Source of the DNA: Sphingomonas canadensis
GTDB lineage: Bacteria; Pseudomonadota; Alphaproteobacteria; Sphingomonadales; Sphingomonadaceae
DNA length: 64,000 bases
Reading direction: 5' to 3'
NCBI RefSeq assembly: GCF_026013525.1
Contig: NZ_JAPDRA010000003.1
Span: forward strand, 186,001-250,000
Position numbers and translations under genes: made by a program. Below the pieces are notes generated by a model, which was not told the DNA's origin, made no database searches, and was given only the letters and a program-made list of their open reading frames with translations. Below, in pieces: positions 1,496 to 40,003 of the stretch (its first letter is position 1; every line of letters begins with the position of its first letter).

Positions 1496-3067
1496 ATGAC
1501 GATCAATCAGAGCGGCTGGCGCCCGGCGCGTCCCCTGGAAGGCGATGCGGAGCCCGCCACCTTCACCGGCAATCGCGCGCTGATGCTTGAGGAGCCGCTG
1601 ATCTTCGAGATCGGTTCGGGCGCCACGACGGGCGTGGATTTCGACGCGCCCGCGCTTCCGGCCGGGGGGCTGGGCGGCCTGCTGCGCACCGCCCCGATCG
1701 GCCTGCCCGGCCTGTCCGAGCCGGAGACGGTGCGCCACTACACCCGGCTCAGCCGCCAGAATTATGCGATCGACCTGGGCCTGTTCCCGCTCGGCTCCTG
1801 CACGATGAAGCACAACCCGCGGCTCAACGAGCGCGTGGCGCGCATGCCGGGCTTCGCGGACCTCCACCCGCTCACCCCCGTCGATGCCTGCCAGGGCGCG
1901 CTGGCGGTGATCGATCAGCTTGCGCACTGGCTGGTGACGCTCACCGGCATGCACAGCGTGGCGATGAGCCCCAAGGCGGGCGCCCATGGTGAGCTCTGCG
2001 GCATCCTGGCGATCCGCGCGGCGCTGGATGCGCGGGGCGAGGGCGCGCGCAAGACGATCCTGGTTCCCGAAAGCGCGCACGGCACCAATCCCGCCACCGC
2101 CGCCTTCGCGGGCTATGCGGTGGAGGATATCCCCGCCACGCCCGACGGCCGCGTGGATACCGCCGCGCTGATCGCCCGGCTGGGGCCGGACGTGGCGGCG
2201 GTGATGATCACCAATCCCAACACCTGCGGCCTGTTCGAGCGCGACATGAAGACGATCTCGGACGCGGTGCATGCCGCGGGCGCCTTCGTCTATTGCGACG
2301 GGGCGAATTTCAACGCGATCGTCGGCCGGGTGCGCCCGGGCGATCTCGGCGTCGATGCGATGCATATCAACCTGCACAAGACCTTCTCGACGCCCCACGG
2401 CGGCGGCGGCCCGGGCTCCGGCCCGGTGGTGTTCAGCGCGGCGCTGTCGCCCTATGCCCCGCTGCCCTTTGTCGAGAAGACCGCGGACGGCTTCCGCCTG
2501 GTGGAGGAGGAGACCGCGGGCGAGCATCATGCGGGCAGCTTCGGCCGCATGACCGCCTTCCACGGCCAGATGGGCATGTTCACCCGCGCGCTGACCTATA
2601 TCCTCAGCCACGGCGCCGATGGCCTGCGCCAGGTGGCGGAGGATGCGGTGCTCAACGCCAACTATGTGCTGCGCAGCCTTCAGGACGTGCTCGACGCGCC
2701 CTTCGCCGCGGCAGGCCCGTGCATGCATGAGGCGATCTTCTCCGACGCCGGGCTGGCCGAGGGCGTCAGCACGATCGACGTCGCCAAGGCGCTGATCGAC
2801 GAGGGCTTCCACCCGATGACGATGTATTTCCCGCTCGTCGTCCACGGCGCGATGCTGATCGAGCCGACCGAGACCGAGAGCAAGGCGGGGCTGGATCAGT
2901 TCATCGGCGCGCTGCGTTCGGTGGCGGAGCGCGCCAAGGCGGGCGACCCCGGCCTGAAGACCGCGCCCCACCACGCCCCGCGCCGCCGCCTGGACGAGAC
3001 GCTGGCCGCGCGCAGGCCGGTGCTGGTGTGGAAGGAACCCGTGGCGGCGGCGGCGGCGGCCGAATAG
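1496..3067 (+). CDS. gcvPB: Glycine dehydrogenase (decarboxylating) subunit 2
   Basis: C-terminal, PLP-carrying half of the glycine cleavage P-protein (523 aa), partner of gcvPA. The PLP lysine is K295 in the motif INLHKTFSTPHGGGGPG, which is followed by the family's glycine-rich loop. LGLFPLGSCTMKHNPR near residue 95 is also typical. The C-terminal tail is alanine-rich. The ATG at 1496 is preceded by GAGG within a copied piece of the gcvPA 3' end. The two genes are separated by 118 bp of repeat DNA, where many relatives have them touching. They are presumably still co-transcribed. Confidence 0.95.
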   Translation: MTINQSGWRPARPLEGDAEPATFTGNRALMLEEPLIFEIGSGATTGVDFDAPALPAGGLGGLLRTAPIGLPGLSEPETVRHYTRLSRQNYAIDLGLFPLGSCTMKHNPRLNERVARMPGFADLHPLTPVDACQGALAVIDQLAHWLVTLTGMHSVAMSPKAGAHGELCGILAIRAALDARGEGARKTILVPESAHGTNPATAAFAGYAVEDIPATPDGRVDTAALIARLGPDVAAVMITNPNTCGLFERDMKTISDAVHAAGAFVYCDGANFNAIVGRVRPGDLGVDAMHINLHKTFSTPHGGGGPGSGPVVFSAALSPYAPLPFVEKTADGFRLVEEETAGEHHAGSFGRMTAFHGQMGMFTRALTYILSHGADGLRQVAEDAVLNANYVLRSLQDVLDAPFAAAGPCMHEAIFSDAGLAEGVSTIDVAKALIDEGFHPMTMYFPLVVHGAMLIEPTETESKAGLDQFIGALRSVAERAKAGDPGLKTAPHHAPRRRLDETLAARRPVLVWKEPVAAAAAAE

Positions 3068-3084
3068 CGCCGCCGCCCGCCGCG

Positions 3085-3426
3085 TCAGTCGGGGCGGTGC
3101 GGCCAGTCTCCGCTGTAGACGATGCACGCCTTCAGCTTCGGCCCGTTCGGCGTCGTCACCAGCGCTGGCGACTGGCGCAGATCGGGCAGGGCGAAGGTCA
3201 TCTTGCTCATCTCGCCGCCATAGGTGTTGCCGATCAGCGCGAAGAGCGCCTGATATTGCTGGATCGGCAGGATCCGGCCGTCCGCCTCGAACGTTCCTTC
3301 GGGGCAATAGTTGGTCGCGAGATAGCGGATCTCGCTGATATAGGGGTCCGCGCTCGCGATTGCGGGCGCGGAACAGCCTATGGCAACTGCCGCCGCGGCG
3401 GCGATCTTGAGCTTGCGGTTGATCAT
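3085..3426 (-). CDS. Exported phage tail-collar domain protein
   Basis: 113-residue protein with a signal peptide (MINRKLK, hydrophobic alanine-rich core, ending near AIASA) and a tail-collar domain. The segments YISEIRYLATNYCPEGTF, LPIQQYQALFALIGNTYGG and TFALPDLR match the core of microcystin-dependent (MdpB-like) collar proteins. The reading frame is open far upstream, but the start at 3426 is chosen because GGGAGGGGAAG lies directly before it and the signal peptide begins there. Its 3' end converges on gcvPB, 17 bp away. The role of such exported collar proteins is unknown. The upstream in-frame sequence is a broken kptA, not part of this gene. Confidence 0.75.
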   Translation of the reverse strand: MINRKLKIAAAAAVAIGCSAPAIASADPYISEIRYLATNYCPEGTFEADGRILPIQQYQALFALIGNTYGGEMSKMTFALPDLRQSPALVTTPNGPKLKACIVYSGDWPHRPD

Positions 3427-31567: not shown

Positions 31568-32677
31568 TCAGCCCCGCGGCGATCCGGGCGGCGCCGCCCG
31601 CAGCGCCAGGCCCGGCCAGGGCAGCCGCAGCGCATTGATCCAGCGCTGGGCGGGCCGCTCGACCCAGTGATAGAGCATCGCCGAACTGGCCAGCACCATC
31701 AGCAGATAGAGCCCGATCAGCGGCCATGGCACCGCGCGCGGATCGCTGACGAAGGCCAGCTTGAACGCGATCCACAGCAGGTAATGGCCCAGATAGGTGG
31801 CGTAGCTGATCTCGCCCAGCCAGTGGAGCGGGGCCGCGTCCAGCGGGTTGCCGCGCCGCCCGGCGGTGAGCGCCAGCGCCACCAGCAGCGCGGCGAAGGC
31901 ACCGGGCACCGCCAGCGTCTCCGCCATCCGGCCGGCCCCCCATGCGGCGAACAGCGCGGCGGCGATCAGCGCGCAGAGCAGCGCGGGCATCCGCCACCGT
32001 TCGCGCCAGCGCAGCCACAGCGCACACAGCGCGGTGCCCGCCGCGAACTCGATCGCGCAGCGGATCAGGCCCAGCCGGGCGATATCCTGGCCCAGCGCGG
32101 TCGCGCCGTCCGCCGCGAACACTGCATGGAGCAGCACCAGCAGCGCCGCCACCGCCGCCACGATCGCGGCCGATGGCACGCGCCGCCAGTCGATCGCCGC
32201 CGCCAGCAGCGGGAACAGCAGATACGCCCCCAGCTCGCACGAGATCGACCAGGCCGGCACGTTCCACGTCAGCGCGTTGGTGAACCCCCAGTTCTGGATC
32301 AGCAGGATGTGCAGCGGCAGCTCGGCGAAGGGAAAGTGCCCCGCCTCGCGCCCCGTTGCGGCGAACAGCAGCGCCAGCGCCGCCGCGCCCGCCAGCACGA
32401 ACAGGTGCAGCGGCCAGATCCGCGCGATCCGGCGCTTCAGGAAATCGCCCGCCGCCGCCCATCCGCCGCCGCGCAGCCGGTCCGCATAGCTCAGCCAGAT
32501 CACGAAGCCCGAAAGCAGGAAGAAGAAATCGACCGCCAGATAGCCCTTGGCCAGTACCGCCAGTACTTCGGGCGGCACGCCGGGCATGGCCAGGCGGATG
32601 TGGAACAGCACCACCATCCACGCCGCCAGCCCGCGCACCGCGGTCAGCGCGCGCAGTTCGTCCGCGCCCTGCTTCAT
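31568..32677 (-). CDS. Acyltransferase family 3 membrane protein
   Basis: 369-residue integral membrane O-acyltransferase with about ten helices. The signatures are ELRALTAVRGLAAWMVVLFH (catalytic arginine/histidine region), AVDFFFLLSGFVI near residue 50 and an SISCELGAYLLFP block. It probably acetylates an exopolysaccharide or glycan. Its ATG overlaps the stop of the upstream O-glycosylation ligase gene by four bases (ATGA), so the two are translationally coupled and probably act on the same polymer. Confidence 0.9.
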   Translation of the reverse strand: MKQGADELRALTAVRGLAAWMVVLFHIRLAMPGVPPEVLAVLAKGYLAVDFFFLLSGFVIWLSYADRLRGGGWAAAGDFLKRRIARIWPLHLFVLAGAAALALLFAATGREAGHFPFAELPLHILLIQNWGFTNALTWNVPAWSISCELGAYLLFPLLAAAIDWRRVPSAAIVAAVAALLVLLHAVFAADGATALGQDIARLGLIRCAIEFAAGTALCALWLRWRERWRMPALLCALIAAALFAAWGAGRMAETLAVPGAFAALLVALALTAGRRGNPLDAAPLHWLGEISYATYLGHYLLWIAFKLAFVSDPRAVPWPLIGLYLLMVLASSAMLYHWVERPAQRWINALRLPWPGLALRAAPPGSPRG

Positions 32678-34044
32678 TGCGCCGCCACTGGCACGGGCGC
32701 GGCGCGCGCGCGCGGCTTGCGGATCGGCCGCCAGTTCTTGTGCGCGTGATGCCGCGCGCAATAGGTGTCGAGCCCGATCTGCGCGCCGATCAGCATGAAC
32801 ACGAAGGGCTGGAAGGCGATCGCGACGAAGGTGGCGCCGAACAGATAGATGATGTGCGCGATCTGCAGCGAGCTGGCCAGCGGGGCGATCCATTCCTCGC
32901 CCGCCTCGGGCTTGCGGTATCGCTGGCGCAGCACCTCCATGCGGAACAGCCCGCCCAGCCCGATCGCCAGCCACAGGAACAGCCCCGGCCAGCCCTGTTC
33001 GCCCAGCATCTCGAAATAGGCGCTGTGATAGGCGCGCGCCTGATCCAGCTCCAGCTCGCGCTTGACCGTGGAGACGTTGCCGCTGGTTTCGACCGAGACC
33101 TTGTCATAGCGGATGCGGTTCTGGCGATAAGCCTCGAAGCCGCCGCCCATCGGGTGATCCTGCACGTAATCGAAGGTCCATTGCCACACCGCCAGCCGCG
33201 TGGAGGCCGATGCGTCCGCCTGATAGGTCTTGATCGTCCCCATCCGCGCGGTGAACTCCGCGGGCAGGAAGGGGATGGCGAGCAGCCCCAGCATCCCCGC
33301 CGCGCCCAGATAGACCAGCTTGCGCTTCACATCGCGCAGCATCAGCGCCGCGAGCAGACCGATGCACAGCAATCCGGTGCGCGTGGACGTGCCCACCGGG
33401 ATCAGCAGGCAGGCGAAGATCAGGCAATAGCAGAAGAGCTGCACCAGCCGGTTGGGCTTGTAGATCGTCCCGAAGCGCGAGAACCACAGGATCAGCGGGA
33501 TGATCGCGATCGCCACGGTGGAGATGGTGGAGCCTTCGTACAGGCCCGAATTATTGTTCACCATCAGGTTCAGCTCGCCATAGCCGCCGCCCGAAAGCAG
33601 TGTCTTCAGCCCGCCGGTGATGATCAGCGTCGCCGCGGAAAGCACCATGAACAGCAGCAGCGCCTCGATCCTGAGCTTGGTGCGCAGCGTCAGCGGCAGG
33701 AAGATCGCGAAGGCCAGCGCCTTCCACACCCATTCCCATTTGTACTGCGCATCGACCGGGAAATCGGCGTAGACGGTGGTGTAATAGCAATAGCCAAGCA
33801 GCATCAGCAGCAGGAGCTGGCGGGGCGCCAGCCGCACGTCGCGCTTGTCGTCCACCGCGATCCAGGAAAGCACCGCCAGCGCCACCGTGATCAGCGAGAT
33901 CGGCAGCGAGTTGAGCAGCAGATAGGTCAGCCGCTGGGGCGAAACGATGTCGATATAGGCATAGGCCAGCACGAACAGGAACGGCCGGCGGAATCCCATC
34001 GCCAGCAACCCGGCGAGGAACAGGATGAACGGGATGTCACGCAC
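32674..34044 (-). CDS. O-glycosylation ligase, exosortase A system-associated (Wzy/WaaL-like)
   Basis: 456-residue polytopic membrane protein. The start MRDIPFILFLAGLLAMGFRR and then FVLAYAYIDIVSPQRLTYLLLN match the exosortase A-associated O-glycosylation ligase family. The O-antigen ligase-like segment has the periplasmic HPMGGGFEAYRQNR and AYHSAYFEMLGEQGWPGLFLW. It likely joins or polymerises glycan repeat units for the exopolysaccharide tied to PEP-CTERM sorting. A GTG start at 34044 is chosen by the conserved MRDIPF; it overlaps the small gene upstream by 8 bp. The exosortase itself is not in the window. Confidence 0.88.
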   Translation of the reverse strand: MRDIPFILFLAGLLAMGFRRPFLFVLAYAYIDIVSPQRLTYLLLNSLPISLITVALAVLSWIAVDDKRDVRLAPRQLLLLMLLGYCYYTTVYADFPVDAQYKWEWVWKALAFAIFLPLTLRTKLRIEALLLFMVLSAATLIITGGLKTLLSGGGYGELNLMVNNNSGLYEGSTISTVAIAIIPLILWFSRFGTIYKPNRLVQLFCYCLIFACLLIPVGTSTRTGLLCIGLLAALMLRDVKRKLVYLGAAGMLGLLAIPFLPAEFTARMGTIKTYQADASASTRLAVWQWTFDYVQDHPMGGGFEAYRQNRIRYDKVSVETSGNVSTVKRELELDQARAYHSAYFEMLGEQGWPGLFLWLAIGLGGLFRMEVLRQRYRKPEAGEEWIAPLASSLQIAHIIYLFGATFVAIAFQPFVFMLIGAQIGLDTYCARHHAHKNWRPIRKPRARAAPVPVAAQ

Positions 34045-34189
34045 CGTCGCGGCCCCATCGGTTGCGGCGGGGCTTCTTCGGCGGATCGCCGGGCGAATCC
34101 TCATGGTCCAGGTCCGGCCGGCGGAGCAGCAGGACGGCCGCCACGAACATCAGCCCGTGCGTGATCGCCAGCGAGATATTGTCGATCAT
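34037..34189 (-). CDS. Small membrane protein ahead of the O-glycosylation ligase
   Basis: 50-residue ORF, MIDNISLAITHGLMFVAAVL followed by LLRRPDLDHEDSP and a basic tail (KKPRRNRWGRDGA). It has one transmembrane helix at residues about 8-24 and a cytoplasmic charged end. The stop overlaps the GTG start of the ligase gene by 8 bp, which suggests coupling. No family recognised and the ribosome-binding site is poor, so coding status is not certain. Confidence 0.55.
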   Translation of the reverse strand: MIDNISLAITHGLMFVAAVLLLRRPDLDHEDSPGDPPKKPRRNRWGRDGA

Positions 34190-34336
34190 CGGGGGTCCCA
34201 GCGCTCCTGCTTCGTGCGGAAGCCTTAACCCGCCCGCGTTGACGCGCCGTAAACGATGATCCACGCGGAGCAGGGGACAGGGTGCGGGGCCGCACGGGAA
34301 CGCGGCGTTAACGCAGCCTGTGGCAGTCAGGCCGGG

Positions 34337-35572
34337 ATGCGTGTCCTCCATATCCTCGACCACAGCCTGCCGCTGCACAGCGGCTACACCTTCCGCACCC
34401 GCGCGATCCTGAAATCCCAGGCGGCGCGCGGGTGGGAGGTCGCCTCCGTCACCGGCCCGCGCCAGCAATCAGGCGTGGTGATCGAGGAGACGATCGACGG
34501 GCTGCGCTTCTTCCGTACCGCCCCGGTGAAGCCGTCGCTGCCCGTGCTGGGCGAACTGCGCGAGATCGCCGCCTTTTCCCGCCGGATCGTGGAGGCGGCG
34601 CGCGAGTTCCGCCCCGATGTGCTCCACGCCCATTCGCCCGTGCTGGACGCGATGGCGGCGCAGCGCGCGGCCCGCCGGCTGGGGCTGCCGCTGGTCTATG
34701 AGATCCGTGCCTTCTGGGAGGATGCGGCGGTGGGCAACGGCACCGGCACCGAGGGTTCGTGGCGTTACCGGCTGACCCGCGCGCTGGAAACGCGCGCGGT
34801 GCGCCGCGCCGACGCGGTGGCGGTGATCTGTGAAGGGTTGCGCGGCGATCTGGTGGCGCGCGGCATCGATCCGGCCAAGATCTTCGTCTCGCCCAACGGC
34901 GTGGACATGGCGATGTTCGGCGCGCCGCCCCCGCGCGACGAGGCGCTGGCCGCCGCGCACGGCCTGAACGATGCCGAGACGATCGGCTTCATCGGCAGCT
35001 TCTACGATTACGAAGGGCTCGACGTGCTGATCGCGGCGATGCCCCGGCTGGTGGCGGAACGGCCGCGGATGCAGCTCCTGCTGGTCGGCGGCGGCCCGAT
35101 GGAGGCGGCGCTGCGCGCGCAGGCGGCGGCATCGCCCGTCGCCGGGCATATCCGCTTCGTGGGGCGCGTGCCGCATGACGAGGTGGAGCGCTGGTACGGG
35201 CTGGTCGACGTTCTCGTATATCCCCGGAAGCGCATGCGCCTCACCGATCTGGTAACCCCGCTCAAGCCGCTGGAAGCCATGGCCCAGCGGCGGCTGGTGG
35301 CGGCGTCCGACGTGGGCGGCCACCGCGAGTTGATCCGCGACGGAGACACCGGTACCTTGTTCGCTCCCGACGATCCCGCCGAACTCGCCCGGTCCGTCGC
35401 CGGCCTGTTTGCCGAGCGTGACCTGTGGGAGGCGCGGCGCGAGCGTGCCCGCGCCTTCGTCGAGGCGGAGCGGAATTGGGCGGTTAATGTCGCGCGTTAC
35501 GAATCTGTTTACCAAAGACTCGCCAATATCGCGCCCGTGAAGGACTCGTGGCCACAGGTGGCGAAGGCATGA
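34337..35572 (+). CDS. Glycosyltransferase, exosortase A system-associated (GT4)
   Basis: 411-residue cytoplasmic glycosyltransferase. The N-terminal MRVLHILDHSLPLHSGYTFRTRAIL is diagnostic of the exosortase A-associated glycosyltransferase family (TIGR04063-like). The GT-B C-terminal domain has IGFIGSFYDYEGLDVLIAAM, LLLVGGGPME and the nucleotide-sugar motif in RLTDLVTPLKPLEAMAQRRLVAASDVGGHREL, with E in PLEAMA. It probably adds a sugar in the exopolysaccharide pathway that also uses the divergent ligase gene. The next gene starts within its stop codon (ATGA). Confidence 0.9.
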   Translation: MRVLHILDHSLPLHSGYTFRTRAILKSQAARGWEVASVTGPRQQSGVVIEETIDGLRFFRTAPVKPSLPVLGELREIAAFSRRIVEAAREFRPDVLHAHSPVLDAMAAQRAARRLGLPLVYEIRAFWEDAAVGNGTGTEGSWRYRLTRALETRAVRRADAVAVICEGLRGDLVARGIDPAKIFVSPNGVDMAMFGAPPPRDEALAAAHGLNDAETIGFIGSFYDYEGLDVLIAAMPRLVAERPRMQLLLVGGGPMEAALRAQAAASPVAGHIRFVGRVPHDEVERWYGLVDVLVYPRKRMRLTDLVTPLKPLEAMAQRRLVAASDVGGHRELIRDGDTGTLFAPDDPAELARSVAGLFAERDLWEARRERARAFVEAERNWAVNVARYESVYQRLANIAPVKDSWPQVAKA

Positions 35573-36552
35573 ACCTGCCGTTGGCGCCCATCGCAGCAGC
35601 TCTGCTCGGCGCCGGTGCCGCGGCGGCGGTCGTCCTGACGCCTGCGCCGCTGCTCGAAACGGCGGTGATGGAAAGCGGCCTGCCGGCGGTGATCGCCGCG
35701 GCCGCTCCCCCGCTGGGCATGACCGCGCGGTTGGCGCTGGCCGCCGGGGCGGGCGCCGTCACCGCGATCTTCGCCTGGCTTGCGCTGTTCGTGCTGTTCG
35801 GCACGCGCGGGCTGACGATCGGCCGCGCCGCCCCCGCCGCACAGACGGCCGAGGAATTTCCCGCCCCCGTGATCCGCCGCGCCGATGCGCACCCCGATGC
35901 GCCGCCGCGCGCGCCGCTGCTCGCCACGCGCGACCTGGGGACGCCGTTCCTGGAGGTGATCACGCGCAGCAAGCCCGCGCCGGCCCCCGCCGCGCCGCTT
36001 GCGCCGGATCCCGAGCCCGTGGCCGCCGAACCGGTGCAGCCCGTTGCGCCCGAACCCGCGCCCCCGGCGCAGGTGCAGGTTCCGTCCGACGCACTCGAAC
36101 TGCCGCCGCGCCGCGCCGCCGTGCCCGAGCGCCAGCGCATCGTGCTGCCCGACGAACGCCCGCTGCCCGAGGATCTGGATCAGCCGCTGTCGGCCTTCGA
36201 TCCTTCCGCGATCCCGCCCGCGCCCGCACCGCTGCCCGAGGCGGTGGCCCCGCTCGCGCGTCCGCCGCGCCCGGCGGTGTTCGATTCGAGCGAGCGTTTC
36301 GAGACCTTCGAACTGACCCCGGTCCGCCGCGATCCGCCGCGCCCGCGTCCGGTTCCCGAGCCCCGCGTCCATGCCGCCGCCAAGGCGGAGACCGAGGCGA
36401 CGATCCACGCGCTGCTCGAGCGGCTGGAACAGGGTGTCGTCCGCAAGGGCATGGCCGAGGGCATGGAGAAAGAGCCGCCCCGCCGCCGCGATTCCGAACG
36501 CGGGCTCGAAGACGCGCTGGTCACGCTGCGCAACCTCGCCCGCCGCGCCTGA
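35569..36552 (+). CDS. Hypothetical membrane protein with proline/alanine-rich domain
   Basis: 327-residue protein not assigned to a family. It has two N-terminal hydrophobic segments (residues about 5-24 and 58-82), a long low-complexity region rich in P, A and E (residues about 100-250) and a C-terminal charged helix (IHALLERLEQGVVRKGMAEGM and LEDALVTLRNLARRA). This layout suggests a membrane-anchored scaffold or envelope protein. Translation overlaps the glycosyltransferase stop by ATGA, so it probably belongs to the same unit. A GTG seven codons upstream is an alternative start. Confidence 0.75.
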   Translation: MNLPLAPIAAALLGAGAAAAVVLTPAPLLETAVMESGLPAVIAAAAPPLGMTARLALAAGAGAVTAIFAWLALFVLFGTRGLTIGRAAPAAQTAEEFPAPVIRRADAHPDAPPRAPLLATRDLGTPFLEVITRSKPAPAPAAPLAPDPEPVAAEPVQPVAPEPAPPAQVQVPSDALELPPRRAAVPERQRIVLPDERPLPEDLDQPLSAFDPSAIPPAPAPLPEAVAPLARPPRPAVFDSSERFETFELTPVRRDPPRPRPVPEPRVHAAAKAETEATIHALLERLEQGVVRKGMAEGMEKEPPRRRDSERGLEDALVTLRNLARRA

Positions 36553-36561
36553 GCGCCCGAT

Positions 36562-36876
36562 TCAGCGCTCCTCGATGGTCAGCGCCTCCACTTCGGCGCT
36601 GACCCCCCCATCCGCGCGGCGCACCGCCTCCACCGACAGGTCGGCGACCAGATGGCCCGCCAGCGCGAACTCGGCTTCGGGCAGGCCGGTCAGCCATTCC
36701 TCGATCGCCGTTCCCGCTGCGCCCTCCAGCACGAACTGATGCCGCGCGCCCGCGAAGGTGGCGCTCGCCCAGCGTGTGACCACCCAGCGGAGGATGGATA
36801 TGGGGCATCCGGCGCGCTCCGCTGAGGCGATCAGCGCGCGTTCCAGCCGCGTCGCGGCATCCGGCCCGCGGCTCAC
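36562..36876 (-). CDS. Hypothetical protein downstream of small HTH-like gene
   Basis: 104-residue acidic protein (MSRGPDAATRLERALIASAE at the start, AGTAIEEWLTGLPEAEFALAG in the middle). No family recognised. The GTG start at 36876 overlaps the TGA of the preceding gene (GTGA) and is preceded by GGGAG, so it is translated together with it. Composition and length are consistent with a real protein. The pair is divergent from the S24 repressor gene and presumably under its control. Confidence 0.68.
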   Translation of the reverse strand: MSRGPDAATRLERALIASAERAGCPISILRWVVTRWASATFAGARHQFVLEGAAGTAIEEWLTGLPEAEFALAGHLVADLSVEAVRRADGGVSAEVEALTIEER

Positions 36877-37067
36877 CGCGGCTGCTCCCGCGCGGCTTCC
36901 TGCGCGTCCAGGAACGCACGGATGCGCGCCACCATCGCGGCACGCGGCTCGCGCCCGTTGCGCAAGTCGCCCACCAGACGCGGATCGCGCACCGCCAGCC
37001 GGCCGAACTTGGTCGGCGGCATCTGCGTGCGTTTCAGGAACTTCTCGACTTCGCGCAGCACCGCCAT
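36873..37067 (-). CDS. Small DNA-binding-like protein
   Basis: 64-residue basic protein, MAVLREVEKFLKRTQMPPTK then FGRLAVRDPRLVGDLRNGRE. The pattern MPPTKFGRLAVRDPRLVGDLR fits a helix-turn-helix of the phage-repressor/antitoxin type, and the end FLDAQEAAREQPR is helical. A strong ribosome-binding site, GGAAAGGGAGCGG, precedes the ATG. It is the first gene of a two-gene unit and is divergent from the S24 gene; their shared spacer carries four operator half-sites. Confidence 0.76.
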   Translation of the reverse strand: MAVLREVEKFLKRTQMPPTKFGRLAVRDPRLVGDLRNGREPRAAMVARIRAFLDAQEAAREQPR

Positions 37068-37119
37068 CCATCCGCTCCCTTTCCGAGTCGCTGAATATGT
37101 TCTTGATCTGTTCTTTGAA

Positions 37120-37155
37120 ATCCTACTTGTCTAGGATAAATCCTATGCATAGGAT
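37120..37155. promoter_or_regulatory. Four-half-site operator array between HTH gene and S24 repressor
   Basis: Half-sites ATCCTA/TAGGAT occur at 37120-37125, 37132-37137, 37140-37145 and 37150-37155, alternating in orientation. They form three overlapping palindromes: ATCCTA-N6-TAGGAT (37120-37137), TAGGAT-AA-ATCCTA (37132-37145) and the perfect ATCCTATGCATAGGAT (37140-37155). The last ends 6 bp before the S24 start codon. Spacing suggests cooperative binding of a dimeric regulator, most likely the S24 protein. Confidence 0.75.
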
Positions 37156-37161
37156 TCGGGC

Positions 37162-37785
37162 ATGGATGGAGACGAACAGCGCGCCGCGCTGCGGCTGTTG
37201 GTGCAGGAGAGCGGGGTCAGCCTGGCCGGGCTTTCCGCGCTGATCGGGCGCAACCCCGCCTATCTGCACCAGTACCTCACGCGCGGTTCGCCCCGGCTGC
37301 TGGCGGAGGCGGACCGTGGAGCGCTCGCACGCTTCTTCGGCGTGCCGGAGGCGCGGCTGGGCGGGCCGGAGCCTGCCGGGCTCGTGGCGGTGCCGCGGCT
37401 TGATGTCGGTGCCTCGGCCGGGCCGGGCGCGCTCGTGTCCGGCGAGGCGCGGCGGACGCCGGGCGCGATCGATCCGGGGCTGCTCCGCCAGCTCGGGGTG
37501 TCCGCGGACGCCGCGTCGCTGATCCGGGTCGCTGGCGATTCGATGCTGCCCACGCTGGCGGACGGCGACGAGATACTGGTGGATGGCGGCCGCCGCCGCG
37601 TCGATGCGCGCCCGGCGCTCTACGTGCTGCGGATCGACGGCGAGCTGATGGTCAAGCGGCTGCGCCTGCTGGGGCGCGAGATCGAGGTGGCGAGCGACAA
37701 TCCCGCATGGCCGGTGCGCGCCTGCGCGGCGGGCGCGGCCGAGGTGATCGGCCGCGTGGTATGGCTGGGCCGCGCGCTGGTGTGA
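37162..37785 (+). CDS. S24 family self-cleaving transcriptional repressor
   Basis: 207-residue LexA/CI-like regulator. The N-terminal helix-turn-helix (residues about 10-65, SGVSLAGLSALIGRNPAYLHQYL) is followed by a Peptidase_S24 domain. Visible active-site residues are S127 in AGDSMLPTL and K165 in LMVKRL, and the likely autocleavage site is A86-G87 in VGASAGPG. Such proteins cleave themselves when stimulated by RecA filaments or related signals, which releases repression. It starts next to the ATCCTA operator array and should control itself and the divergent small genes. It differs from canonical LexA in domain order details and lacks the LexA winged helix. Confidence 0.88.
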   Translation: MDGDEQRAALRLLVQESGVSLAGLSALIGRNPAYLHQYLTRGSPRLLAEADRGALARFFGVPEARLGGPEPAGLVAVPRLDVGASAGPGALVSGEARRTPGAIDPGLLRQLGVSADAASLIRVAGDSMLPTLADGDEILVDGGRRRVDARPALYVLRIDGELMVKRLRLLGREIEVASDNPAWPVRACAAGAAEVIGRVVWLGRALV

Positions 37786-37794
37786 GCGGCGGGC

Positions 37795-37974
37795 TCAGCC
37801 GCGCTTGCGGTCCTTGAGCCACAGCAGCGTGGCAACCGCGATGCCGCCGCCTGCGCCGCCCAGCAGTCCGATCGTCGGCTGGCCATAGATCATGCCCACG
37901 ATCGCGCCCGCGATCAGGAACAGCGCGAGCAGCGATCCGCCCGCGACCGGATTGGGAGTGTTCGACGAACTCAT
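37795..37974 (-). CDS. Small transmembrane protein
   Basis: 59-residue ORF, MSSSNTPNPVAGGSLLALFL then IAGAIVGMIYGQPTIGLLGG. It has two hydrophobic stretches (residues about 12-30 and 34-52) and a basic C-terminus (LKDRKRG), typical of a small inner-membrane protein. It is convergent with the S24 repressor (10 bp gap) and has only a weak ribosome-binding site (AGGG). No family with known function. Confidence 0.65.
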   Translation of the reverse strand: MSSSNTPNPVAGGSLLALFLIAGAIVGMIYGQPTIGLLGGAGGGIAVATLLWLKDRKRG

Positions 37975-38162
37975 GCCGTGCCCTGTGCCACGTCCCGGCG
38001 CGGGACGCCACTGTCCCCCGGCGGCACGCGCGATACGCTCCGGCGGCGGCCCGCGCCGGGCCGTTTACCTTCGCGCCCGGCGGTTTCGGAGGAGTCCTGC
38101 GCTTCCGGCACGGCGCGTGCGTATGCGCGCGGCGCGCACGCATGCGCGATCCGGGAGTGCCG

Positions 38163-38375
38163 ATGGAGCAGATGCCTTTCGTAACCGACCGTGAGCAGTT
38201 CGCCGCCGCCGCGCGCCTGATGCGCGATTATGGCGCGGAAGCCGGTCTTGAGGCCGCCGCCCGCGCCGATCACAGCCGCGATCAGGGCAACCACATCCAC
38301 TTCTGCCGCTGGCGCCAGATCGAACGGCTGATCGTGCTGCTGTCGATGCCCTGCGCGGTCGGCACGGTGCATTGA
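38163..38375 (+). CDS. Conserved small hypothetical protein
   Basis: 70-residue soluble ORF, MEQMPFVTDREQFAAAARLM with RDQGNHIHFCRWRQIERLIV. GGGAG lies 6 bp before the ATG at 38163, which selects this start over an upstream ATG. The HFCRWRQIER segment has a single cysteine and two basic clusters. Resembles short sphingomonad proteins of unknown function. Upstream is a GC-rich inverted repeat (GCGTGCGTATGCGC/GCGCACGCATGCGC near 38115-38148) that may fold over its leader. Confidence 0.65.
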   Translation: MEQMPFVTDREQFAAAARLMRDYGAEAGLEAAARADHSRDQGNHIHFCRWRQIERLIVLLSMPCAVGTVH

Positions 38376-38392
38376 GCCGGGGTCGACCGGGT

Positions 38393-38432
38393 TAGAGTCT
38401 GTCCGGTTCAGGCGGCATCGGCCCGCCGGGCC
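38393..38432. repeat. Half copy of the TAG-ended palindromic repeat
   Basis: TAGAGTCTGTCC at 38393 followed by GGTTCAGGCGGCATC matches the reverse complement of the right end of the repeat at 9090-9218 (TAGAGTCTGTCC TGTTCAGGCGGCACC) at all but a few positions. The long arms are absent apart from a short CGGCCCGCCGGGCC. It occupies the space between two convergent genes. Confidence 0.6.
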
Positions 38433-39029
38433 TTACCGCTCCTTGTGCGCCAGCCACACGGTGTGCCCGCCGCTCGCCGCGTCTTCCTGTGCAAAGGCGA
38501 TCACCGCCAGCCCCGCCTGGCGCAGCAGGTCGCGATAGGCCGCCGGGTCCAGGCTCGCGTGATACAGCGCGTCGCCGAACTGGCACCCGGCGCCCTCGCC
38601 ATGCGCCGGCCCGGTGGTGAACAGCAGCACGCCATGGGGCTCCAGCCATTCGCCGAACTTCGCGATCATCGCCGCCTGGTCGTCGGGCGGCAGGTGGAAC
38701 AGGCTGTCCCACGCCAGGATGCCGTGGAAGCGATGCCAGGGCACCACCGTGCGCATGTCCTCGTGCAGCCAGTCCTGGCGGGGAAAGCGCGTGCGGGCCA
38801 GCGCGATCATCCGCCCGGAAACGTCCACGCCGGTCAGCTTGCGCCCCGAATCGATCAGATAGCGCGACACCGGCTCTCCGCCGCCGCAGCCCAGATCCAG
38901 GATATGCCCGCCGCGCGGGACGGCGAGCAGGAAGCGATCGAGCCAGTTGCGTTCGGCAAAACCCGCCCTGCGCGCCTCGTCGAATGCGTGCGCGTGCCGG
39001 TCGTAATGTTCGGCAACCCTGTCGGGCAT
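38433..39029 (-). CDS. SAM-dependent class I methyltransferase
   Basis: 198-residue protein with motif I HILDLGCGGGEPVSRYLID (residues about 42-60), then VDVSGRMIALARTRFP, and FHGILAWDSLFHLPPDDQ in motif II-III. Small-molecule methyltransferase of the UbiE/Methyltransf_25 type with unknown substrate. GAAGGAGAG precedes the ATG at 39029. It shares an intergenic space with the half-copy repeat at its 3' end. Confidence 0.88.
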   Translation of the reverse strand: MPDRVAEHYDRHAHAFDEARRAGFAERNWLDRFLLAVPRGGHILDLGCGGGEPVSRYLIDSGRKLTGVDVSGRMIALARTRFPRQDWLHEDMRTVVPWHRFHGILAWDSLFHLPPDDQAAMIAKFGEWLEPHGVLLFTTGPAHGEGAGCQFGDALYHASLDPAAYRDLLRQAGLAVIAFAQEDAASGGHTVWLAHKER

Positions 39030-39144
39030 ACCTCTCCTTCGCGGCCCCGCGGGCGCCGGTTCTGCCCGGCCGGCCCGGGGCCGCTGCGATAGAGGATACG
39101 CCCCTGCGTGAAGCCTGTCACGCCCGGCCCGGGATCACCCCGGA

Positions 39145-39939
39145 TCAGGCCCGGTATCGCAGCGCCGGCTCGCGGCTGGACAGTCCCGGCGCCATCGCTG
39201 CACGCGCCGCGACCAGCGCCTCCCAGCCGGAGATATCGTGCAGCGGCGGGATGGTCACTGCTTCGCCCCGCTCCAGCCCCAGCAGCGCGGCGTCGACCAG
39301 ATCGCCCACCTCCATCACCATCTCCGGCGGGAACTGGTCGAAGCTGAGCGCGCTGCCTTCCAGGAATTCGGTGCGGGTAAGGCCGGGCAGCACCGCCTGC
39401 ACCTGCACGCCCGTACCCGCCAGATGCGCCGACAGCGATTCGCTCAGCGCCAGGACATGCGCCTTGGTGGCGCTGTAGAGCCCCTCGAACTGTGTCGGCG
39501 CCAGCGCCACGACCGAGGCGAGGTTGACGATCGTGCCGCGCCCGCGCGCGGTGAAGGCGCGGACGGCGGCGGCGGCGAGCTGGGTCGGCGCGGTCACGTT
39601 GAGCGCGATCAGCCCGGCGATCTCCGCATCGCTGGCCGCCGCCAGCCCCTGCATCAGCCCCGCGCCGGCATTGTTGACCAGCAGCGTGACGGCGGCATCG
39701 CCCTCGATCCGCGCGGCCACCCGCGCCACCGCGGCGGGATCGGTCAGGTCGGCGGGCAGCGTCTCCACTGTGCGGCCGGTCTCGGCGCGGATATTGTCCG
39801 CCAGCACGTCCAGCCGGGCCGCGTTGCGCGCGACCAATACCAGATCGTGCCCGCGCCGCGCGAGCCGCCCGGCATAGGCCGCGCCGATGCCGGAGGATGC
39901 GCCGGTAACGATGGCGGTGCCGTTGAACTTATGCGTCAT
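39145..39939 (-). CDS. SDR family NAD(P)-dependent oxidoreductase
   Basis: 264-residue classical short-chain dehydrogenase. The cofactor motif is TGASSGIGAAYAGRL (residues about 12-26), followed by NNAGAGLM, and the catalytic serine and tyrosine are in NLASVVALAPTQFEGLYSATKAHVLAL (YSATK). Substrate unknown. It is divergent from the HxlR regulator at 40015, a common arrangement in which the regulator controls the oxidoreductase. Confidence 0.92.
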   Translation of the reverse strand: MTHKFNGTAIVTGASSGIGAAYAGRLARRGHDLVLVARNAARLDVLADNIRAETGRTVETLPADLTDPAAVARVAARIEGDAAVTLLVNNAGAGLMQGLAAASDAEIAGLIALNVTAPTQLAAAAVRAFTARGRGTIVNLASVVALAPTQFEGLYSATKAHVLALSESLSAHLAGTGVQVQAVLPGLTRTEFLEGSALSFDQFPPEMVMEVGDLVDAALLGLERGEAVTIPPLHDISGWEALVAARAAMAPGLSSREPALRYRA

Positions 39940-39975
39940 GGTCGGGAAATCCTTGTCCTGGGGGATGGCGAAGAG

Positions 39976-40003
39976 GTAACTTGCATTTCGCTATCTAGTA
40001 ACT
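39976..40003. promoter_or_regulatory. Possible HxlR binding region
   Basis: Two GTAACT direct repeats (39976-39981 and 39998-40003) sit 22 bp apart, about two helical turns, in the 75-bp spacer between the SDR gene and the HxlR gene. Their position next to both starts suggests regulator binding. HxlR sites described elsewhere are often inverted repeats, so this is tentative. Confidence 0.4.

Follow-up and report, generated by a model that had tools for sequence, protein, structure and literature searches.

A putative SOS-linked, phage-derived repressor cassette with a tail-terminator homologue as cargo in Sphingomonas canadensis

The locus described here occupies positions 36562 to 37785 of a 64,000-nt stretch of Sphingomonas canadensis DNA (contig NZ_JAPDRA010000003.1, positions 186,001 to 250,000; hereafter the window) and consists of an S24-type regulator and a divergent operon of two small genes, HTH64 and P104. 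Parts of it are familiar from described systems. The immunity regions of temperate phages, such as the Mu-like Pseudomonas phages, combine a self-cleavage-type S24 repressor with a divergent small helix-turn-helix (HTH) gene and a palindromic operator between the two. In UmuDAb-DdrR of Acinetobacter, an S24 repressor is divergent from a small gene and control is exerted by DNA damage (PMC7273328). The LexA-controlled higBA genes of Caulobacter form a small two-gene operon with an HTH protein and an alphaproteobacterial LexA box, described as a perfect LexA site (PMC13384398). Tail terminators are represented by Rcc01690, the g8 product of the gene transfer agent (GTA) RcGTA (PMC7296036), and by families PF11367 and phrog_176 (SPP1 gp17). 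Finally, blocking of tail assembly is a real defence strategy, used by Tab (PMC10884400) and Tai (PMC11364771).

The reading favoured here, which we regard as reasonably probable, is that the locus is a domesticated, apparently vertically inherited, CI-like cassette of phage origin, which is opened by DNA damage and makes one orphan tail-terminator protein. An earlier note on the window had described the same genes and sites as a stress-triggered switch and proposed that the operator be searched elsewhere for a regulon. Its observation was confirmed; its interpretation was partly supported, the link to LexA, the identity of P104 and the lack of a regulon being the points on which it falls short.

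Proteins of the cassette

The S24 regulator (37162..37785, + strand, 207 aa) consists of an N-terminal HTH and a LexA/CI-type self-cleavage domain. Peptidase_S24 (PF00717) was matched at 2.1e-16, above cut-off, and HTH_31 at 22.2 bits, under the 27-bit cut-off of that family. Residues 12-204 matched the PHROG family phrog_4, transcriptional repressor, at 5.5e-31, and the c repressors of Mu-like Pseudomonas phages showed 34% identity across 92% of the length of the regulator. The Ser/Lys dyad and the Ala-Gly bond noticed before were found to be kept among 119 aligned homologues (S127 in 119, K165 in 118, A86 and G87 in 116 each). Because of this conservation, self-cleavage at A86-G87 via S127/K165 is plausible. 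With its HTH, its Peptidase_S24 domain, the dyad and the bond, the protein is placed by sequence among the S24/LexA-CI self-cleaving repressors. The possibility that it is LexA itself was excluded: TIGR00498 gave 23.1 bits against a cut-off of 110.95, and a separate lexA is located at C2:66959 in the same genome.

HTH64 (36873..37067, - strand, 64 aa) is the first gene of the operon divergent from the regulator, and P104 (36562..36876, - strand, 104 aa) is the second. The two-gene unit and the S24 frame of the earlier note were thus recovered. The GTG start of P104 at 36876 overlaps the HTH64 stop, reading GTGA. A 4-nt overlap was also seen in 62 of 80 named loci, this named set being the best 80 of the 176 relatives that were confirmed by scanning named genomes with a P104 profile.

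Searches with HTH64 gave no Pfam, NCBIfam or PHROG match. Its AlphaFold (AF2) model (pLDDT 89.9) contains four helices. Foldseek returned nothing at E 0.001, the top rows including HipB and HigA at E about 1. Fold matches were weak, with Z values of at most 7.0, a range that the tool calls common, and mostly lambda-repressor-like (HipB, HigA, P22 c2, SinR). The model thus hints, weakly, at a predicted lambda-repressor-like HTH protein.

The AF2 model of P104 has an alpha-beta-beta-alpha-beta-beta order at a mean pLDDT of 93.1. Using VIA-align, the top matches were Listeria antigen B (Z 10.4), 6tba_4A (Z 10.4), a monocin cap (10.2) and phage neck proteins. The chain 6tba_4A, which is named tail terminator Rcc01690, was aligned over 99 residues with an rmsd (root-mean-square deviation) of 2.8 and 19% identity, and the T5 and lambda terminators gave Z values of 7.6-8.9. 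In BFVD, the best row was a 'tail completion protein' at E 2.5e-5. The fold alone would not settle the identity of P104, since PilO (Z 9.3) and collagenases (Z up to 8.4) were also among the matches.

Identity was settled by sequence, through homologues that stand beside an S24 gene in other families, because these match PF11367 and pair with P104. Four such orthologues were scanned and all matched Tail_completion_gp17 (PF11367) at 3.8e-18 to 4.5e-25 as well as phrog_176, 'tail terminator'. An alignment of ten S24-adjacent homologues was paired with the P104 alignment by hhalign at a probability of 97.2% (E 4.5e-11). Both groups share the motif W.SATF.G..H and mostly also a C-terminal LTV or LTI. 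P104 is approximately 30 aa shorter than the terminators; in the alignment, some 20 residues are missing from it in the stretch from helix 1 to the first strand, as are parts of two loops. By sequence and model, P104 is a miniaturised, diverged phage tail terminator, and therefore the earlier statement that no phage genes lie around was wrong in substance.

The P104 alignment comprised 73 of 81 rows. L076 was left out for an internal stop, L091, L101, L110 and L111 for start ambiguity, and L048, L057 and L059 by choice; the HTH64 alignment comprised 56 of 81 rows. A fusion of HTH64 and P104 in the four loci with ambiguous starts was considered and rejected: when translated, L091 and L110 proved to be P104 extended upstream in another frame. 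The internal stop of L076 (Sphingomonas hylomeconis) is the only one in its P104 frame (3001-3309) and may represent gene loss.

In a 44-row tree, P104 and the S24-adjacent terminators formed one group (98/91) without GTA or phage rows. The neighbour of this group was a long-branched Rhizobium phage row with weak support, in a bootstrap that had not fully settled. Rows included 10 of 81 P104 sequences and 10 of 12 S24-adjacent terminators (L174 and L182 were left out). Fourteen rows were labelled as GTA, 12 with DUF2460 approximately 4 kb off on the same contig and two (L219, L222) without it. Three PF11367 rows of unknown context were labelled 'other'; L196, which represents the gene of L174 again, was omitted together with L199 and L200.

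Conservation and control elements

All three genes, with S24 divergent, were present in 80 of 80 named loci, which bears out the conservation of the block in other sphingomonads that had been proposed as a check. S24 was close by in 79 of them and approximately 2 kb off in L066. An S24 match was obtained in 57 of 61 searched genomes, including all 36 congeners. Within the genus, 30 S24 loci were examined, the one in the window among them; HTH64 was present at 29 and P104 at 28, exceptions being L024, which is cut by a contig end, and L018, without a P104 match. Across the order, P104 was matched in 119 of 196 genomes. Same-family loci around such matches contained all three genes in 26 of 28 cases, and in other families S24 was divergent beside the P104 homologue in 12 of 12 matching genomes, without HTH64.

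Median ratios of non-synonymous to synonymous substitution (dN/dS) were 0.33 for P104 (307 pairs), 0.30 for HTH64 (665 pairs) and 0.32 for S24 (457 pairs), with no pair at or above 1. Pairs, which are not independent of each other, had a protein identity of 60-97% and a dS of 0.1-1.2. All three genes are under purifying selection.

HTH64-like domains were found in 21 searched genomes of other orders. A divergent S24 homologue was adjacent over most of its length in 8 of these, or in 10 when partial matches are included (hand count). No match for the tail terminator was found at these loci of approximately 3 kb. The divergent HTH/S24 pair may therefore be a general module to which the terminator was added as sphingomonad cargo. 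In L141, L143, L144 and L147, from other orders of the class, tandem HTH64-like copies stand beside a divergent S24. The S. canadensis genome itself has a second HTH64-like domain (G000:C7:28292-28456; L146), with no S24 match in the surrounding 3.2 kb.

Some further loci were noted. L119 (RPSH01000002.1), titled Bacillus sp. 2B10, contains a full Sphingomonas-type block and probably stems from a mislabelled or contaminated assembly. In some loci of other families, a protein of 107-178 aa is encoded between S24 and the terminator, as at L171 2767-3303, L177 1450-1890 and L178 1906-2229; those of L171 and L177, the two that were scanned, gave no Pfam or PHROG match. The neighbours of L171 look like ribosomal proteins L13 and S9, a reading made by eye without a family search.

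The intergenic region holds the four alternating ATCCTA/TAGGAT half-sites of the earlier note as exact copies: ATCCTA at 37120..37125, TAGGAT at 37132..37137, ATCCTA at 37140..37145 and TAGGAT at 37150..37155. Relatives keep about three of these. The first is retained as TCC.A, the second as TAGGA (at least 97% per column in 79 loci) and the third as TCCT (at least 96% per column in the same loci); the fourth is not generally conserved, so that the full array, exact in the window, is not a general feature. In 79 of 80 named intergenic regions (the 2-kb region of L066 was left out) the conserved core was TCC.ACTTGTCTAGGAaAa.TCCTa, upper case denoting at least 90% of rows. The conserved element can be written as TCC.ACTTGTCTAGGA, 4 nt, TCCTA. 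Rows were aligned on TTGTC or ATGTCTAGG, and conservation in those columns is partly built in. GTCTAGG was present in 79/79 regions and TTGTC in 74/79; a stricter whole-core pattern matched 70/80 named loci.

The same conserved letters suggest a putative S24 promoter (37127..37155, + strand), consisting of a -35 element TTGTCT (37127-37132), a 17-nt spacer holding operator sites and a -10 element TAGGAT, which is half-site 4. With TTGTCT taken as -35, 17 nt was the best spacer (of 16-18) in 69/79 regions. The -10 is weak: most of the 79 regions agree with TATAAT at 3 or 4 of its 6 positions, often at only 3. It lies 6 nt before the S24 start codon in the window and 6 or 7 nt before it in 63/79 regions, and the S24 mRNA is probably leaderless. 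The assignment rests on conservation, since a generic sigma-70 scan called no promoter, the putative S24 promoter included. Part of the operator would accordingly sit in the promoter spacer.

For the 12 loci of other families, which have no HTH64, a count over the 180 bp preceding S24 gave 26 TCCTA/TAGGA half-sites versus 2.4 expected; the half-sites are thus ascribed to S24 rather than to HTH64. The 64-kb window contains a single ATCCTA-N4-TAGGAT with at most one mismatch, where shuffles predict 0.01, and the full 16-mer ATCCTATGCATAGGAT with at most two mismatches was a single copy in the whole 4.2-Mb genome. Across 23 genomes of the genus, that of S. canadensis among them, the core TCCNACTTGTCTAGGA without mismatches was found exactly once in 18, twice in none, and was absent from five; sites with one or two mismatches were no commoner than those of a reversed control pattern. 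A genome-wide S24 regulon, as envisaged earlier, is not supported, the perfect core occurring at most once per genome and at the cassette locus. For this reason, S24 looks like a local repressor.

Beside the operator, between HTH64 and S24, lies a LexA (SOS) box, GTTCTTGATCTGTTC (37099..37113), of the form GTTC-N7-GTTC that is reported for alphaproteobacteria (PMC3091678). When the AT before it is included, the sequence agrees with the Caulobacter consensus (T/A)TGTTC(N6)TGTTC (PMC13384398). The box was exact and forward in 26 of 29 congeneric intergenic regions, a count that takes the S. canadensis region once and does not cover L024, which was not measurable. Of the named loci, 68/80 had it in exact form, compared with 3/3820 equal-length windows of the same loci and 13/4000 shuffles. 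It lay upstream of both genes, at 46-48 nt from the S24 start in 58/67 rows and at 24-41 nt from that of HTH64 in 63/67 rows. By its box upstream of the gene, the cassette is a candidate member of the alphaproteobacterial SOS regulon. The damage-responsive switch of the earlier note, likened to a phage immunity region, was thus likely but incomplete, the probable wiring to SOS via this box having been missed.

LexA-type motifs are frequent in the S. canadensis genome (72 copies, versus 23 for the reversed pattern). Visual inspection of spacers for likeness to the window box gave a set of fifteen of the 72 that was followed up, among them the copy that precedes lexA (C2:66959). For ten genes beside motif copies the first ~160 residues were scanned for families. 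Matches included uvrA, a uvrD/pcrA helicase, a DNA-polymerase-IV-type gene, imuA and topA; two genes were without family and one matched a hypothetical protein. Radical SAM and egtB/senA-like proteins beside motif copies are not classical SOS genes. Boxes at C1:1001614, C27:56424 and C25:52999 lie before topA and near egtB/senA-like and PA0069-type radical SAM genes. The pattern GAACATTTCATGAAC, considered as a reverse LexA box in many other genera, was discarded, as it sits within the HTH64 coding frame.

In L066 (Sphingomonas sp. 28-63-12), HTH64 and S24 are approximately 2 kb apart, and the LexA box stays with HTH64 and the TCCTA core with S24. This natural split fits a LexA box serving HTH64 and a core serving S24.

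The seven neighbouring open reading frames (32674-39939) encode an O-antigen ligase, a glycosyltransferase, a methyltransferase, a short-chain dehydrogenase and three proteins without Pfam family. The latter (35548-36552, + strand; 37795-37974, - strand; 38142-38375, + strand) are kept in 69, 66 and 62 of the 80 named loci, respectively. No phage structural, lysis or integration family was found in the seven, and their PHROG matches were of metabolic, methyltransferase or unknown types only. The cassette is not in a recognisable prophage. No RNA family reached gathering score at 34000-40000, and no PADLOC model matched S24, HTH64 or P104 at E 1.

With DUF2460 as marker, 19 genomes of the genus, including that of S. 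canadensis, were checked for a GTA, and 14 had one. A separate PF11367 gene approximately 4 kb from DUF2460, on the same contig, was present in 10 of the 14 GTA-bearing genomes, which indicates that GTAs have a terminator of their own. DUF2460 gave no match in the S. canadensis genome (G000) nor in G004, G011, G015 (83% complete) and G016, all of which carry P104. By these comparisons, P104 appears not to be a GTA part, and the cassette occurs where no GTA was found.

Proposed switch and rival explanations

The switch would operate as follows. Dimers of S24 would bind the TCCTA/TAGGA sites inside its own likely promoter, upstream of HTH64, limiting synthesis of S24 and helping to hold down the HTH64-P104 operon. 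In Sphingomonas, LexA would add a further lock via the GTTC-N7-GTTC box on the HTH64 side. Upon DNA damage, RecA on single-stranded DNA would cause LexA and, by homology, S24 to cut themselves, and the operon would open. HTH64 might act as a Cro-like partner, resetting or reinforcing the switch. P104 would be the likely effector; as its target, our best guess is the assembly of tails, whether these belong to an induced prophage, an infecting phage or a GTA. Action on tails is favoured because the terminator core is conserved.

The following points weigh against this reading. P104 of the window has no Pfam family, and PF11367 was absent from the matches obtained with 73 scanned members; no phage record matched it by tblastn, and Foldseek versus the PDB gave nothing at E 0.001 or better (best 3.2e-3). 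Its homology thus rests on intermediates and fold. HTH64 is not supported as a sequence paralogue of the S24 HTH (hhalign probability 0.2%), and as no sequence relation to it is detectable the term 'Cro-like' is positional only. No promoter was identified for HTH64. In the species of L066, the split makes it less likely that S24 controls HTH64. Two of the 28 same-family loci (L161, L184) are without HTH64 or a proper S24. S24 regulators need not be RecA-dependent, as described for IrvR of Streptococcus mutans (PMC7101444).

The LexA box is less widespread than the cassette. It was absent from 12 of 80 named loci, of which 11 read GATC-N7-GTTC. Among 26 loci mainly of other genera, the exact forward box was present in five, and reversed in one more; none was found ahead of S24 in the 12 loci from other families. 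It is largely a feature of the genus Sphingomonas. As GTCTAGG was kept in 24 of the same 26 loci, we infer that control by S24 came first and that LexA control was added later, mainly in Sphingomonas.

L184 (G222:C3) was also noted in its own right: it contains a P104 homologue with neither S24 nor HTH64 in 5 kb, and the same genome has a normal block at L185.

The strong rival is that P104 has been re-used away from virions, as a damage checkpoint, a repair factor or a corepressor like DdrR beside UmuDAb. It is compatible with the cassette model and differs from it in the target of P104. In its favour, P104 is a solitary gene that has lost segments, is fixed in the host and is linked to SOS, and the divergent small-gene layout resembles that of UmuDAb/DdrR; the whole terminator core fold is nonetheless kept and modelled with high confidence, and we hold this re-use possible, if on the unlikely side.

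Within the cassette model, a further proposal is that Sphingomonadales have a host-owned, damage-gated anti-virion gene. P104, a terminator that has lost segments outside its core, would be made on prophage induction or when a phage causes DNA damage, and would cap or poison growing tails and thereby give tailless particles. It would then be a chromosomal, inducible counterpart of Tab and Tai, derived from a stolen phage part. This proposal is tentative and, taken as a whole, rather unlikely.

It is improbable that the operon is an SOS-controlled pair resembling a toxin-antitoxin system, with HTH64 as DNA-binding antitoxin and P104 as growth-inhibiting toxin, as in Caulobacter higBA. Two small overlapping genes with the HTH gene first, the HipB and HigA rows obtained with HTH64, though at E about 1, and the LexA site of higBA speak for such a pair. 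P104 is however a tail-terminator homologue, and other families have its orthologue beside S24 without HTH64.

It is improbable as well that S24 is retained because it makes the cell immune to temperate phages that share its operator, with HTH64 and P104 as leftovers. The likeness of S24 to Mu-like c repressors and the immunity-type layout would be explained, but purifying selection on P104 and HTH64 is about as strong as on S24, and the two remain one operon across the genus.

An accessory GTA role, with P104 as an alternative terminator coupling GTA assembly to DNA damage, is very improbable despite the match to the RcGTA terminator fold and the frequency of the marker in the genus, because P104 persists in genomes without DUF2460 and groups outside the GTA terminators, which GTAs supply themselves.

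As a form of domestication, the cassette is unusual: much of the order retains a lone phage structural gene under a phage-type repressor, to which one genus has added LexA. Should tails be the target of P104, the cassette would be a vertically inherited, SOS-inducible defence against virion assembly and a test case for host re-use of phage parts; if not, a tail-ring fold would have been turned to cell biology. Either way, an unannotated candidate member is added to the alphaproteobacterial SOS regulon.

Comparison with described systems

No description of the cassette was found among the entries listed from the literature searched, namely open-licence PubMed Central, most subscription papers lying outside it. 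Compared with a phage immunity region, the cassette is without recognised integrase or lysis genes, has a conserved chromosomal context, carries one structural gene as cargo and has a LexA box added. UmuDAb-DdrR operates in Acinetobacter, which is without LexA, and runs error-prone polymerases; S. canadensis does have a LexA, and its cassette carries a tail-terminator protein as cargo. In contrast to Caulobacter higBA, the second gene is a tail-terminator homologue and an S24 repressor is added. With RcGTA g8 and the PF11367/phrog_176 terminators P104 shares a homologous fold, the S24-adjacent orthologues scoring well above the family cut-off, but P104 is shorter and no other head or tail gene was recognised beside it. 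With Tab and Tai, compared by description, only the proposed action is shared, that is, interference with phage tail assembly: Tab is prophage-borne and Tai is prevalent on phage-inducible chromosomal islands (PICIs), prophages and satellites, whereas P104 is host-fixed and SOS-linked.

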